Assembly (NCBI RefSeq): GCF_900114745.1
Contig: NZ_FOUB01000002.1
Span: 62,001 to 126,000 of the forward strand
From: Nitrosomonas communis
GTDB taxonomy: Bacteria; Pseudomonadota; Gammaproteobacteria; Burkholderiales; Nitrosomonadaceae
Length of the DNA: 64,000 nucleotides
Direction: 5' to 3'
In this document: positions 16,626 through 36,449 of the stretch, in pieces
Numbering within the stretch: position 1 is the stretch's first letter
Layout: each line of letters opens with the position of its first letter
Program-made: the position numbers and the translations under genes
The notes under the pieces: generated by a model
The model's database searches: none
What the model was told of the DNA's origin: nothing
Seen by the model: the letters and a program-made list of their open reading frames with translations, nothing else

Positions 16626-17660
16626 ATGCTTGAGATTGATGGCAGTTACGGCGAAGGCGGCGGTCAGCTTCTACGACTTGCCGTCGCATTGTCTGCCATT
16701 ACCGGCATCGAGGTGCGCATCACGGATATTCGTGCACGGCGCGACAAACCTGGCCTTGCCGCACAGCACCTCGCGGGGGTGCGCGCCGTGGGCAAGCTCT
16801 GCGGTGCGAGAATCGAAGGCCTCGCCTTGCGATCAGACCAAATTGTTTTCGAACCGGCAACGCTTCAGGGTGGCGATTATCACTTTGATGTAGGCACTGC
16901 GGGCAGCATTACGCTGGTGCTGCAAGCCTTGCTGCCAGTCATGCTGGCGACCCGCCTGCCTTGCAAGGTGCATATCACCGGCGGCACCGACGTGCGGCAG
17001 GCACCTGCTGCAGATTATTTGCGCGCAGTGCTTATTCCGTTGATCAAACGCCTCGGTGCGCAGGTAACCATGCACGTGCTGCGTCGTGGCTATTATCCAC
17101 GGGGTGGTGGCGAAATCGAGCTCGTAGTAAGACCGGCAATGCTCTCATCCGCAGTATTCGATGCGTCTGGAGACAGCAAGACCATCTGCGGGCTTGCGCA
17201 CGTAACTAACCTTCCTGAGCATATTGCGCTCCGAATGAAGCAGGCGGTACTTAACAGGCTTGGCACTTACGGTATACAGGCGAGTATCGAGACGCAGGTT
17301 TTGGGTCGCGAAGCAGCTTTCGGTGCAGGCGGCGCCATCGTCTGCTGGCTCGAGAGTGAGCACACTGTGCTGGGTGCAGCACGGGTCGCAGAGCGGGGCG
17401 TCTCCGCGGAGACGTTGGGTGAGGCTGTGGGGGAGGAGCTTGCCACAGATATTGCAGCGGGTGCTGCGCTCGATACTCACGCAGCTGATCAAATACTTGT
17501 TTATCTCGCGCTTTTAGGTGATGGATCATTCAGCACGCGCCATGTCTCACTGCATGCGCGCACAGCGATGTGGCTGATCGAACAGTTTCTGCCGGTAACG
17601 TTCGAGGTAACTGAATCGTCAGATCTTGCTTACATTACTGTGAGAGTACGTGGAGAATAA
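16626..17660 (+). CDS. rtcA: RNA 3'-terminal phosphate cyclase
   Basis: Converts RNA 3'-phosphates to 2',3'-cyclic phosphates with ATP through a covalent His-AMP. The 344-residue protein opens with IDGSYGEGGGQLLRLAVALS, the RtcA signature, and has RARRDKPGLAAQHLAGV, GTAGSITLVLQALLP and RGYYPRGGGEI. The adenylated His is residue 285 in LDTHAADQILVYLAL, with the C-terminal TRHVSLHARTAMWLIEQFLP also typical. No rtcB or rtcR is present next to it. Instead it is followed after 2 bases by an MJ1316-domain gene, which in the literature is proposed to recognise cyclic-phosphate RNA ends. Confidence 0.93.
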   Translation: MLEIDGSYGEGGGQLLRLAVALSAITGIEVRITDIRARRDKPGLAAQHLAGVRAVGKLCGARIEGLALRSDQIVFEPATLQGGDYHFDVGTAGSITLVLQALLPVMLATRLPCKVHITGGTDVRQAPAADYLRAVLIPLIKRLGAQVTMHVLRRGYYPRGGGEIELVVRPAMLSSAVFDASGDSKTICGLAHVTNLPEHIALRMKQAVLNRLGTYGIQASIETQVLGREAAFGAGGAIVCWLESEHTVLGAARVAERGVSAETLGEAVGEELATDIAAGAALDTHAADQILVYLALLGDGSFSTRHVSLHARTAMWLIEQFLPVTFEVTESSDLAYITVRVRGE

Positions 17661-18903: not shown

Positions 18904-19335
18904 GTGTCGCTGAACGTTGACCCTTTTCTGCGCACCATCGCTACGCTTGAGCAAGCGTTGATTGCGCTGCAACGTCTCGAGAATGACGACATACTCTATG
19001 ATCTCTACCGCAATGCAGCGATCAAAAGTCTGGAATTGTCGCTTGAAGCTATCGGCAAGTTGTTGCGTAAGACACTCAAATCTTATAGCGGTAATCCACG
19101 TGCTGTGGACGGGTTAATGTTTAACGATGTGCTGCGTATGGCAGGAAGGCATGGGCTTCTGGATATGGATGGCGTCGAGCGCTGGCTCGCGTACCGCGCT
19201 AACCGCAATACTGTTGCGCACGACTATGGGGAGGGTTTTACCAATCAAACTCTTAAACTGCTGCCACAATTTATTAACGATGCGAGAGAGCTGGCTGATA
19301 CCCTGAAGCATCTTCCCAATGAGCAAGCAGATTGA
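18904..19335 (+). CDS. HEPN-domain toxin of HepT type
   Basis: A 143-residue all-helical protein of the HEPN/nucleotidyltransferase-substrate-binding family. The motif R101-x4-H106-x-Y108 (RNTVAHDY) is the RX4HXY ribonuclease motif of HepT toxins. Start is GTG at 18904, preceded by GAAGGAG. Its end overlaps the next gene by 17 bases, with the nucleotidyltransferase second, as in HepT/MntA pairs. Family knowledge: HepT cleaves RNA and MntA silences it by AMPylation of the Tyr. Alternatively it is an HI0074-type substrate-binding partner without toxicity. Confidence 0.8.
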   Translation: MSLNVDPFLRTIATLEQALIALQRLENDDILYDLYRNAAIKSLELSLEAIGKLLRKTLKSYSGNPRAVDGLMFNDVLRMAGRHGLLDMDGVERWLAYRANRNTVAHDYGEGFTNQTLKLLPQFINDARELADTLKHLPNEQAD

Positions 19336-29170: not shown

Positions 29171-29986
29171 ATGAAAGATGAAGTCTGTATTCACTTCTTG
29201 CAGTGGGTCCTACCGCAGATGCAGCTGCGGTGGCAAGGTTTTCGTCGGGTTAGAAAACAAGTATGTAAACGTATAGGTCAGCGTATTGACCAGTTAGGTC
29301 TTGTGGATGAATTGGCTTATCGTGATTATTTGCTTAATCATGTGTCTGAATGGCAAATCCTGGCCACCTTGTGTCATGTTACTATCTCGCGTTTTTATCG
29401 CGATAAAGTCGTTTTTAATCGACTTGAAGATGAATTAATACCCCGATTATGTGCTCAGCTGCAACTACGAGGTGAAAAATACTTATATTGCTGGTGTGCA
29501 GGTTGTGCCAGAGGTGAAGAGGCTTATAGCCTGGTGTTACTCTGGACTTTTGTTTTGCAAGATCGCTACCCAGAAATGGTAATTTCGATTACTGCAACAG
29601 ATATTGAGCCACTCATGATTCAACAGGCACACAAAGCGTGCTATCCATTTAGTAGTTTGAAGAATTTAGCACCTGAATGGCGTCAAAAAGCGTTCAGACA
29701 AATCAATGATCGATATTGTCTGTCTCCCATTTATCAGCATCCAGTCACTTTCGCGGTAAGCGATGTAGAACAAGTTATAGCCATGCGATCTTATCATTTG
29801 GTGCTATGCCGCAACCTGGTGTTTACCTATTTTAGCTTGGAAAGACAAGTGCAATTTCTACATAAATTACAAACACGACTATTAGAAGGAAGTGTATTAG
29901 TGCTGGGTGCGCATGAGCGTTTGCCTGAAGGGGTAAGCGGGTGGAACCAGTGGCAGCCACGATTGCCGATCTATGTGCGTGAATAG
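29171..29986 (+). CDS. CheR-type methyltransferase domain protein
   Basis: A 271-residue protein with the CheR layout: an N-terminal helical part (FRRVRKQVCKRIGQRIDQLG), TISRFYRDKVVFNRLEDELIP (family V-x-x-F-F-R-D), the SAM-binding segment YCWCAGCARGEEAYSLVLL (family WSAGCSTGEEPYS), ATDIEPLMIQQA, and CRNLVFTYF (family CRNVLIYF). It is predicted to methylate protein carboxyls as in chemoreceptors, but no chemotaxis genes are adjacent and it lacks the extra domains of hybrid CheRs. A MITE lies 47 bases before its start and may carry or separate its promoter. Confidence 0.85.
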   Translation: MKDEVCIHFLQWVLPQMQLRWQGFRRVRKQVCKRIGQRIDQLGLVDELAYRDYLLNHVSEWQILATLCHVTISRFYRDKVVFNRLEDELIPRLCAQLQLRGEKYLYCWCAGCARGEEAYSLVLLWTFVLQDRYPEMVISITATDIEPLMIQQAHKACYPFSSLKNLAPEWRQKAFRQINDRYCLSPIYQHPVTFAVSDVEQVIAMRSYHLVLCRNLVFTYFSLERQVQFLHKLQTRLLEGSVLVLGAHERLPEGVSGWNQWQPRLPIYVRE

Positions 29987-33453: not shown

Positions 33454-35439
33454 CTAGGATAATTCATCCTGCTTGTTACTACTCCTAATGGGCTGCAAAG
33501 CAGCCGGCATGACAACACATGAGCAGACAGCATGTATCTCATCATAAACCTGCTGTAGCTTGTCAGCATAGCGCTGGGAAAAATGAAAGGGCACCAGTCT
33601 GGCAACTTCAGCAGCTGTTGCGATTTCGCCACAAGCGCGTGTAGTTAAATGACCAGTCTGCGTGGCTTGGTTGGCATCTGCTTCCATAAAACAAGCTTCG
33701 CAGAAAAGGGTATGGGCGTATCGAGCTAAAGCCTGTAGACGCAGGCGATTATCTACGGTATCAGCAAAATCGGTGGCATAAACTAATTTCTTACCTGGCT
33801 TGATCAGGACCAGGTCAGTTGCAATAACAGTCACACTGGTCATCGTCCCGTCAGGCAGAGTAATGATTGCTTTGTCATTTTCAGCCAGCAGGTGTTTTTT
33901 CACCTGGGCCAACCAAGGCCCTGGCTTCAGGTTATGTGCTTGCAGGTAATCTTTGCGGATATTGATTTCCTTCGTCGGTTCAAAGGCGTAGGCCAGCACT
34001 GGTGTATGATGATCTAGCAGTTGTGCTCGAATACGGAAATCCGGATCTTGCAGGATCACGCCTGCTTCCAACTTGATCTCGTCTAATTGCACACATGCTT
34101 GCTGGCCTGCTTGAAGGCGAAAGCGCAATAAACGGTCGGTATGCACTTCAGCTACCTCAAAGCGGGGTGCGCGCCCACCGATCCGATCCCATAGAATACC
34201 CTGCAGGAAACCTTTGATGTGTTGAGCCAATCCTGGCGGCCCATACAGGTGGCAAGGCGGAAACTCTCCAATGCGTGAGCGCAATAACATTATGAAGCCA
34301 CCAATATGGTCGATATGAGTATGACTGATAAAAACATCCGTTACCTGATGGGCAATGCGTGCTGGCAGACGTACACCCTCTCCCAAATCGAACAGCAGAC
34401 TTCGCCTTTGCTGCCGCAAGCGTATGTGTAATAGTGGATCGCCAAGAATCCCATTGACCAGACAGAAATCGATTTGCCCGACTCGCCCCATCACTTGCAT
34501 CCCACTATTTTGCAGGGCTAAGCCGCTCATATTGGAGGCTGGTAGGTATGTTAGCGGTTCTGACGCAAACGGTACCGCTGTTTCCACTAGACCGCTGAGC
34601 GAACGCTGCGTATCTCGGACCAATACACAATCGAAAGCATGCGGTAGGTATGGCAACCTGACAGTTAATTGCTTTCCGTGCAAATGCTTCACTTCAGCTA
34701 TGACCTGTGTCTGATTGCGTTTCAATAGTGCGACCTGTCTTCCAGCCCAGGCGCTGGATTCACCTAAAGGAGGTGGGGTACCGATAATATTTACTTGCGT
34801 AAGATCGACCGTTTGTTCAATACCCTGCTTAAGGTAGTTATTCCATAGCTTTGTACGCTGGTGAGCGCGACTACGTTTTCCGGGCCGCCTGGCCTCCACG
34901 CTGGTTTGGACTATGAAGAGCTGGTTCGTTAAGCTACGCAGTTCATCTAGCAGCGCCGGAGGTCGATCAGGCGCAGTAAGCATGAGCACAGCATCGACAG
35001 CTACCACCTCAAACATACCTTGTAACAATTCGCTGCCAGCAACGCCACGGGTTACGCCAGGGGCATCAATTAACAGTACGTCGTAATCAAACAATGGTAT
35101 AAGGTGTCGTATCGCTAAAACCAGCGGCAGGCGGAAACGACCGGCATTGAGACTGCAGATAGCTTCATAACTGCAAATCTGCCAATCATCCGATTGCCAT
35201 CTAGCGAGAGAAACAGCGCCTGGAAAACCAAAGGCGGGTGAACCAGGATCGGCACAGATACAATAACAGCTTCGACCAGCCTTGTTGAGTTCGTGCGCCA
35301 ACTGCGATGCCAATGTCGATTTGCCGACTCCAGGTGGGCCATGCAACAATATGCGCCGATTGTGCGTTAATACGGTGGTAGCGATATCAGCCGCACGATA
35401 CGCTAAAACAGGCAAGTGGTGTTTAGTATCGTTATACAT
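33454..35439 (-). CDS. Fusion of Clp1/Grc3-like polynucleotide kinase and RNase Z-like nuclease
   Basis: A 661-residue two-enzyme protein. Start is the ATG at 35439, after GGAGGGAGGGG. Residues 20-300 read as a P-loop kinase of the Clp1/Grc3 type: Walker A GPPGVGKST (34-42), CADPGSPAFGFPGAVSLA (61-79, matching the DxGQxxxxxPGxxSL strand of Grc3/NOL9) and LIDAPGVTRGVAGSELLQ (Walker-B-side loop). Residues 320-650 are an RNase Z-type metallo-beta-lactamase domain: HTHIDHIGG (373-381), DHHTPVLAYAFEP, YATDFADT, GHLTTRACGEIA and HFSQRY. Members of the first family phosphorylate RNA 5'-OH ends; the second cuts pre-tRNA 3' trailers. Together they suggest an RNA end-processing enzyme. Confidence 0.8.
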   Translation of the reverse strand: MYNDTKHHLPVLAYRAADIATTVLTHNRRILLHGPPGVGKSTLASQLAHELNKAGRSCYCICADPGSPAFGFPGAVSLARWQSDDWQICSYEAICSLNAGRFRLPLVLAIRHLIPLFDYDVLLIDAPGVTRGVAGSELLQGMFEVVAVDAVLMLTAPDRPPALLDELRSLTNQLFIVQTSVEARRPGKRSRAHQRTKLWNNYLKQGIEQTVDLTQVNIIGTPPPLGESSAWAGRQVALLKRNQTQVIAEVKHLHGKQLTVRLPYLPHAFDCVLVRDTQRSLSGLVETAVPFASEPLTYLPASNMSGLALQNSGMQVMGRVGQIDFCLVNGILGDPLLHIRLRQQRRSLLFDLGEGVRLPARIAHQVTDVFISHTHIDHIGGFIMLLRSRIGEFPPCHLYGPPGLAQHIKGFLQGILWDRIGGRAPRFEVAEVHTDRLLRFRLQAGQQACVQLDEIKLEAGVILQDPDFRIRAQLLDHHTPVLAYAFEPTKEINIRKDYLQAHNLKPGPWLAQVKKHLLAENDKAIITLPDGTMTSVTVIATDLVLIKPGKKLVYATDFADTVDNRLRLQALARYAHTLFCEACFMEADANQATQTGHLTTRACGEIATAAEVARLVPFHFSQRYADKLQQVYDEIHAVCSCVVMPAALQPIRSSNKQDELS

Positions 35440-35909
35440 GCATTTCCCCTCCCTCCGTACAAAAAGCTTGATGACTTTTGATCTTGATTTGATCACAAAA
35501 GTTTTTTAACTGAGGCAGTTTCCAATCATTTCCAAAGGTAGAAAAAGCTAAGTTGGATTTTGTTAAACACAGCATTACGTCGCTTCAAGGTTGATGATGC
35601 GCAGTATCATGAGTAATATTGCTTATCTGCTAAAGCTGAGTGGGTAGTTATTTGTTCTCAAAGCTCTCGTCCTAGACTTTAGCTGAAACGACCCAGTAGG
35701 TGGACAAAGAGAAAGCTGCAGCAGCTAGCCATTGAGGTGGTAATTCCATTTTTAGGTCAAAAATGACACGTAGGCGAGCCGCAGACAGTATAAATTAATA
35801 CGGCAAGGCGAAGCCGACAAAGTCATTTTTGATCTGGAAATGGAATAAAAAAAGTAAAGCGGTGAAGGGATATAAATTTACTCTAACCCAATAATGGGAG
35901 ATGTAATTT
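35440..35909. other. Intergenic with MITE
   Basis: Region between the divergent kinase/RNase Z fusion and the macrodomain gene. Apart from the MITE at 35744-35845 no gene or terminator is seen. Confidence 0.4.
35744..35845 (+). mobile_element. MITE, copy 6 (102 bp)
   Basis: Ends TTCCATTTTTAGGTCAAAA and TTTTTGATCTGGAAATGGAA, flanked by TAA on both sides. One extra T in the central TATAAATTAATACGG makes it 102 bp. It lies 64 bases before the macrodomain gene. Confidence 0.9.
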
Positions 35910-36449
35910 ATGACTAAGCGTGAATTCTTCGGCGTAACGATTGAGTGTGTTCAGGGAAATATTGCAGCTCAAGCTGATATGGATGCCATTGTTAACGCGG
36001 CTAACGCCATGTTGCGAATGGGCGGGGGTGTGGCAGGCGCGATTCATCGGGGAGCAGGCCCTGGCCTCGAAGAGGAATGCCGCAAGCTCGCACCTATTCA
36101 GCCTGGCCAGACGGTCATAACCGGAGCACATAATCTGCCAAATCGTTATGTTATTCATTGTCTTGGGCCGGTCTACGGTAAAGATGAGCCTTCTGATCAG
36201 TTGCTCTCCTCTTGTTATCGTAATGCGTTGCAATTGGCCGAGAACAATCGCATCAGATCCATTGCTTTTCCGGCAATCTCGACGGGCTTTTTTGGCTATC
36301 CCTTGGAATTAGCTACCAGGATCGCCTTTCAGACAATTTTCGATATACTTCCCAGCCTTTTGATTGTTAAACATATTCGCTTTGTTTTGTTAAGTGATGC
36401 TGATCGGCAGTTATACGAGCAAATTCTTGACGAGTTCGAAAAAACATGA
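35910..36449 (+). CDS. Macrodomain protein (MacroD-type ADP-ribosyl hydrolase)
   Basis: A 179-residue single macrodomain. The ADP-ribose-binding loops are intact: GNIAAQADMDAIVNAANAML with GGGVAGAIHRGAGPGLEEEC (MacroD loop 1), and FPAISTGFFGYPLELATRIA (loop 2). The family removes ADP-ribose from proteins or nucleic-acid ends or deacetylates O-acetyl-ADP-ribose. Its neighbour on the other strand is a kinase/RNase Z fusion, which makes a role in nucleic-acid end chemistry possible, but they do not share an operon. GGGAG precedes the ATG. Confidence 0.9.
   Translation: MTKREFFGVTIECVQGNIAAQADMDAIVNAANAMLRMGGGVAGAIHRGAGPGLEEECRKLAPIQPGQTVITGAHNLPNRYVIHCLGPVYGKDEPSDQLLSSCYRNALQLAENNRIRSIAFPAISTGFFGYPLELATRIAFQTIFDILPSLLIVKHIRFVLLSDADRQLYEQILDEFEKT

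Follow-up and report, generated by a model that had tools for sequence, protein, structure and literature searches.

A Clp1-like half and an RNase Z half in one protein

The 64,000 nucleotides of Nitrosomonas communis DNA analysed here (hereafter the window) contain, on the minus strand, an open reading frame (ORF) whose sequence is that of one protein with a Clp1-like 5'-end kinase half and an RNase Z half. The gene and the parts of its product are the following:

33454..35439, minus strand: Clp1-RNase Z fusion gene (P0001), 661 amino acids (ORF, ATG, Pfam/NCBIfam matches, homologues)
35446..35456, minus strand: purine-rich ribosome-binding sequence GGAGGGAGGGG, upstream of the fusion ATG (read directly)
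34825..35412, minus strand: Clp1-type P-loop kinase domain, residues 10–205 (Pfam, conservation, model, alignments)
34540..34824, minus strand: beta-rich domain matching the Clp1 C-terminal domain, residues 206–300 (fold alignment, model strands)
33505..34473, minus strand: RNase Z domain, residues 323–645 (NCBIfam, alignments, model)

The ORF starts with the ATG at 35439 and stops at 33454, while an alternative in-frame GTG farther upstream would give 680 amino acids. An earlier interpretation of this DNA (the sequence-only reading) had proposed two RNA-enzyme domains in one bacterial protein, and this is borne out by the ORF and by Pfam/NCBIfam matches to both halves; the motifs it quoted are present in the translated sequence, and the family given to each half is confirmed by sequence, conservation and predicted structure. 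Conservation was derived from an alignment of 119 full-length fusions (600–760 residues, query included), out of 121 proteins in hand; P0045, whose 415 amino acids comprise the RNase Z part alone, and P0094, with 878 amino acids, were excluded.

The best Pfam family of the N-terminal half is CLP1_P (PF16575; E 5e-13, 49.7 bits against a cut-off of 26.6), which matches 61 of 61 aligned family members at E ≤ 0.001. The competing assignment to MinD/ArsA-type P-loop proteins fares worse, as CbiA, of the MinD/ParA family, matches only 9 of the 61, with worse E-values. The kinase domain possesses a Walker A motif (GPPGVGKST, residues 34–42), a Walker-B-like motif (ADPGSPAFGFPG, 63–74), a clasp-like motif (DAPGVTRG, 125–132) and a lid-like motif (RSRAHQRT, 189–196). 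In a VIA alignment to the C. elegans Clp1 chains, residues 11–283 of the predicted model are covered, and the modeled N-terminal fold is that of the Clp1 kinase core with its C-terminal domain. A piece running from Walker B to the C-terminus, with the P-loop omitted, found no match among PDB sequences.

The P-loop K40, the Walker-B D64 and the lid residues R191 and R195 are invariant in all 119 fusions. D64 pairs with the Asp of LDVGQ in human Clp1 (hhalign probability 75.6); the lid is outside the hhalign range, and its equivalence to that of Clp1 is therefore based on motif and fold match. In contrast to these retained residues, two Clp1 residues are replaced. They belong to what I take to be the DxxQ motif and the TxGW motif of the clasp, whose letters are present in the human and worm Clp1 alignments: the Gln of the former is Ser67 in the fusion (Ser in 114/119), and the Trp of the latter is Val129 (Val in 110/119). 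A 5'-OH kinase, as proposed in the sequence-only reading, is thus favored by the family and by the P-loop, Walker-B and lid residues, but weakened by these two replacements.

It is conceivable, if rather unlikely, that the Clp1 half is an ATP-binding module for RNA docking or switching (the part played by yeast Clp1 in its complex), not a working kinase, and controls where or when the RNase Z half cuts. The near-fixation of both replacements across the aligned family fits such a module, as does the slightly better conservation of the nuclease half (mean column identity 0.763, against 0.714 for the kinase half). Yeast Clp1, which is listed as inactive (PMC10598085), likewise deviates in the clasp by alignment. 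However, a pure docking module is not expected to retain both lid arginines, and their invariance, together with that of the P-loop Lys and Walker-B Asp, argues against it.

For the C-terminal half, the best family is PRK02126 (NF002558), named 'ribonuclease Z', with 268.6 bits over residues 325–641, under its cut-off of 315. TIGR02651 is also under its cut-off (115.8 bits against 292.95, residues 340–636), and Lactamase_B_2 of Pfam matches with an E-value of 1e-12. The metal and catalytic residues of RNase Z (H373, H375, D377, H378, H477, D557, H597 and H619) are invariant in 119/119 fusions. The first four lie in the HTHIDH motif, residues 373–378, in agreement with the full motif set, including HTHIDHIGG, that had been described. 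Catalytic residues are invariant in both halves. In the arm region, a PGP motif (residues 506–508) aligns with the PPGP of RNase Z, with P506 present in 112, G507 in 119 and P508 in 106 of the 119 fusions; the glycine/proline motif of the RNase Z arm binds tRNA. The predicted model of this half shows a fold match to RNase Z-tRNA complexes.

Distribution and origin of the fusion

Of 7999 candidates scored in a protein search, 1337 are homologues at E ≤ 0.001; 120 of these homologues were listed, so that counts from them are lower bounds. Among the matches listed, the named sources are Nitrosomonas species and metagenome-assembled genomes named Methylomarinum, Gammaproteobacteria and Pseudomonadota. 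A scan of genome contigs matched two close Nitrosomonas relatives alone, and an order-level search around one carrier (G045) covered 2 genomes.

Two even samples of genomes were then used. In the class sample (274 genomes) the fusion is found in 9, each of a different family; in 13 further genomes the RNase Z half has a stand-alone relative, and G062 has a partial C-terminal piece. The PRK02126-type stand-alone relatives show ∼31–41% identity. In the phylum sample (398 genomes) the fusion is present in the N. communis genome, G642, G409 and G320, and split across two contig ends in G349; G409 and G320 are carriers outside the class. The samples overlap in a few genomes (e.g. G013), and the four other fusion genomes of the second are all absent from the first. 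Presence is patchy, as the fusion is missing from the complete Nitrosomonas genome G364. In-frame stops in the matches of G036, G061 and G642 are ordinary stop codons, at positions 640/643, 615/617 and 634/639 of the match.

A tree of the RNase Z half was built from 47 rows. Fusions supplied 29 of them: 17 were taken from the 119 database proteins and 12 from genomes, two of the latter having an RNase Z half identical to that of a database row. The other rows were 17 stand-alones from genomes and one Halomonas protein. The tree omits G021 and G138, whose match is in two pieces, and G062, whose C-terminal piece lies at the end of a contig. The 29 fused rows group in a single clade with support 100/100, in which the Halomonas protein P0270, beside the fused G349, is the only unfused row. 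This suggests one fusion event, followed by one apparent loss of the kinase.

Several proteins depart from the two-domain organization. P0270 (Halomonas aestuarii), P0165 (Zobellella) and P0123 (Nitrosomonas sp. ANs5) consist of one half, by apparent loss, truncation or splitting. P0094, the 878-residue metagenome protein, is extended beyond the RNase Z half by a third domain, a HAD hydrolase (PF00702, residues 678–847). In G236 the RNase Z relative ends a 1005-residue open frame (L088:7077-10094), the remainder of which has no Pfam match at E ≤ 0.001; it was for this reason counted as a stand-alone, and the frame is possibly a fusion to something else or a chance open frame.

Carriage by phages or plasmids was considered and rejected. 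Among 50,697 phage records there is no fusion and one weak match to the RNase Z half; 34 of 72,556 plasmid records have a match, which in no case covers 80% of the query, and the 20 listed are confined to the RNase Z half. In viral contigs, one or other of two peptide patterns occurs in 29 stretches, none of which codes for a relative. A link to defence systems was likewise rejected, since the PADLOC P-loop matches of the fusion (E 5e-5 or worse) and the DarG match of a neighboring macrodomain protein are weak.

Association with RNA ligation and proposed role

The window contains one further RNA end-processing gene, on the same contig as the fusion and ∼16 kb from it:

16626..17660, plus strand: RtcA, RNA 3'-terminal phosphate cyclase (TIGR03399, 391.7 bits, above the cut-off of 250.05)

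RtcA was counted only above this cut-off, which 22 of the 25 matching genomes pass; it is present in 5/9 fusion genomes of the class sample, against 17/265 others (Fisher 2e-4). The RNA ligase RtcB was divided into a long and a short type, the long type being defined by at least 540 bits in the class sample or 530 in the phylum sample, a line set after a gap was seen in the lists. For all tests G062 was scored as 'partial', and a fusion-gene fragment in G163 was not counted as a fusion. In the class sample, long RtcB is found in 8/9 fusion genomes against 49/265 others (1.7e-5), in 10/13 genomes with a stand-alone relative, and in 19/23 genomes with any form of the RNase Z relative against 38/251 without (3e-11). 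None of the 9 fusion genomes has short-type RtcB only, which is the case for G364, the fusion-less genus mate. In the phylum sample, leaving aside the N. communis genome, all 4 fusion genomes (from two families) have long RtcB, against 7/393 others (3e-7); the association with stand-alones is weaker there (2/6, p 0.004).

Archease adjoins long RtcB in 22 of the 24 loci read. Among the 12 fusion genomes having long RtcB, archease lies beside it in 11, and was not found in G349. Archease-RtcB operons, and the activation of RtcB by archease, have been described (PMC3973293).

I propose, with a probability of roughly 0.4, that the fusion is a two-domain RNA end-processing enzyme for tRNA-like RNAs, and an alternative to, or brake on, archease-activated RtcB ligation. 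The RNase Z half, whose metal site is intact and whose arm has a motif for tRNA binding, would position a tRNA or tRNA fragment and act on its 3' side, either by cleaving extensions after the discriminator base or by removal of a 2',3'-cyclic phosphate. ELAC1, the short form of RNase Z in humans, is said to repair tRNAs in the latter way. The CCA-adding enzyme could then restore the tRNA end. The Clp1 half, using ATP, would phosphorylate 5'-OH ends produced by endoribonucleases. As RtcB cannot join a 5'-phosphate, the phosphorylated tRNA pieces would be withdrawn from sealing and directed to re-maturation or decay, hence an alternative or a brake. The substrates of RtcB carry 5'-OH and either 2',3'-cyclic phosphate or 3'-phosphate ends (PMC3973293). 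Both activities, tRNA as the substrate and the way in which RtcB would be affected are my inferences.

A role around broken tRNAs, raised in the sequence-only reading as repair of tRNAs cut by toxins, is made more likely by the co-occurrence with archease-RtcB and RtcA; tRNA repair is plausible, but the role may equally be disposal, and phosphorylation of the 5'-OH would block joining by RtcB. Several observations weigh against the link to RtcB. G067 carries the fusion with no RtcB match. An rtc gene close to the fusion is rare across the loci compared: in the N. communis genome, archease-RtcB is on another contig, and close arrangements are seen in G045 (RtcA directly upstream of the fusion on the same strand, with 34 base pairs (bp) between the ORFs), G052 (a RtcA-archease-RtcB cluster ∼9 kb away) and G163 (the fusion-gene fragment, ∼1.1 kb from RtcB). 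No rtc gene was seen adjoining the fusion in the remaining loci read.

It seems improbable that the fusion is simply a housekeeping RNase Z to which a kinase domain is accessory, maturing the 3' ends of tRNA or other RNAs as a matter of routine and without a particular link to damage or RtcB. A survey for a separate rnz identified the fusion as the sole TIGR02651 match in the N. communis genome, in line with such a role, and 250 of the 274 class genomes have a match at E ≤ 0.001; only 2 of these are above cut-off, however, and many of the weak ones may be other metallo-beta-lactamase-fold proteins. On the other hand, all 41 distinct tRNA genes called in the N. communis genome encode CCA, so that trimming of CCA-less precursors is not needed. 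The scores under the NCBIfam RNase Z cut-offs, the patchy presence and the strong co-occurrence with archease-RtcB in two samples also speak against a housekeeping role.

Still less probable is that the fusion heals both ends for an ATP-dependent ligase of 5'-phosphate and 3'-OH ends, like T4 Pnkp-Rnl1 but with unrelated 3'-end chemistry: the predicted activities would jointly yield such ends, P0094 adds a hydrolase domain, and PF09414, the one RNA ligase family searched, is above cut-off in 6/14 genomes that carry the fusion or the C-terminal part of it (a count with no background rate to compare), which makes such sealing possible in some lineages, but 8/14 are without one above cut-off, the N. 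communis genome has no match, and the consistent partner is RtcB, a user of 5'-OH ends.

Returning to the proposed alternative or brake, I consider it doubtful that the fusion is a dedicated bacterial counter-enzyme to archease-RtcB, in which the RNase Z half would find tRNA ends and the Clp1 half would phosphorylate 5'-OH ends. If so, the cell would choose between sealing a broken tRNA through RtcB and discarding or re-maturing it, in a one-protein bacterial version of the metazoan CLP1/ELAC1-versus-RTCB relationship.

Known relatives and neighboring genes

A close known relative of the kinase half is Clp1, the polyribonucleotide 5'-hydroxyl kinase of human and C. elegans. In the eukaryotic Las1-Grc3 and TSEN-CLP1 complexes the kinase acts on a 5'-OH generated by the nuclease, which is HEPN or TSEN. 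In contrast, RNase Z cleavage leaves 5'-phosphate and 3'-OH, and the two halves of the fusion therefore probably act on different ends. The RNase Z half resembles RNase Z, ELAC1 and E. coli ZipD (RNase BN) in fold, metal ligands, HxHxDH and arm PGP motif, but scores under the curated cut-offs, has a kinase in front and is not needed for CCA-less tRNA processing in the N. communis genome. PRK02126 is its best family, yet the fusions score below that subfamily's cut-off and form their own clade. T4 Pnkp also combines a 5' kinase and a 3'-end enzyme on one chain; in it, and in the PNKP of C. thermocellum, the kinase family differs from that of the fusion and the 3'-end domain is unrelated. C. thermocellum PNKP has the same single-chain pairing (PMC6777427), a likeness the fusion shares with both.

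A bacterial Clp1 from Thermus scotoductus (Ts-Clp1) has demonstrated 5'-RNA kinase activity (PMC6777427). It belongs to the Clp1 family, as does the kinase half of the fusion, but is a stand-alone protein of ∼27 kDa, whereas the fusion carries RNase Z behind the kinase. The same survey describes bacterial Clp1 genes as extremely rare, with carriers in 14 of the 1,543 bacterial species it examined; in its main text, the words 'fused', 'fusion', 'RNase Z' and 'lactamase' are absent (PMC6777427). Literature searches on Clp1 with RNase Z, Rtc or bacteria, in which subscription journals were mostly outside coverage, found no description of the fusion. Some homologues bear the source name 'ribonuclease BN (tRNA processing enzyme)/polynucleotide 5'-kinase involved in rRNA processing', showing that annotation software has already met both domains. 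The fusions represent a conserved bacterial Clp1 lineage, with at least 119 full-length members, joined to a tRNA enzyme and statistically linked to archease-RtcB. Bacterial Clp1 thereby gains a concrete pathway that can be tested, and competition between kinase and ligase, as discussed for tRNA splicing in metazoans, becomes accessible to testing in a simple system.

The gene next to the fusion in the window is divergent:

35910..36449, plus strand: macrodomain gene (Pfam Macro, E 1e-42)

Its presence beside the fusion had been pointed out before and holds in the three Nitrosomonas loci, but not beyond among the loci compared: it neighbors the fusion in 0/8 other clustered loci, and in 0/5 loci from four further fusion genomes compared by BLASTP. 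The macrodomain gene is therefore probably not a functional part of the fusion system. The idea that the macrodomain clears the ADP-ribose product of a 2'-phosphotransferase (Tpt1/KptA) was rejected, because PF01885 is found in 1/23 genomes searched, and not in the N. communis genome, and because the macrodomain neighbor is restricted to Nitrosomonas loci.

Other neighbors were recorded. In G184, a CheR-type methyltransferase gene (L080:10280-11134) lies 11 bp downstream of the fusion, and a homologue (29171-29986 in the window) is a few genes from the fusion in all three Nitrosomonas loci. In G045, a PEP-utilising-enzyme-like gene (L078:6403-7674) lies ahead of RtcA and the fusion, all three being on one strand. 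In the window, a HEPN-like NTase_sub_bind/HepT-like gene (18904-19335) follows RtcA ∼1.2 kb downstream. Besides its archease-linked long RtcB, the N. communis genome has three further short-type RtcB genes (C64, C61, C88). Near archease-RtcB, isochorismatase/nicotinamidase-like and nicotinate phosphoribosyltransferase genes occur in two families (N. communis, L111:4391-8658, C89; G206, L125, where the neighbors are named by cluster alone), separated by a universal stress protein gene in the former and a 575-residue gene in the latter. Finally, a gene of CapA-type appearance ('FLCGDVMxGRGID', by eye) stands beside the stand-alone RNase Z relative in L165, L170 and L169 (G461, G477 and G448).
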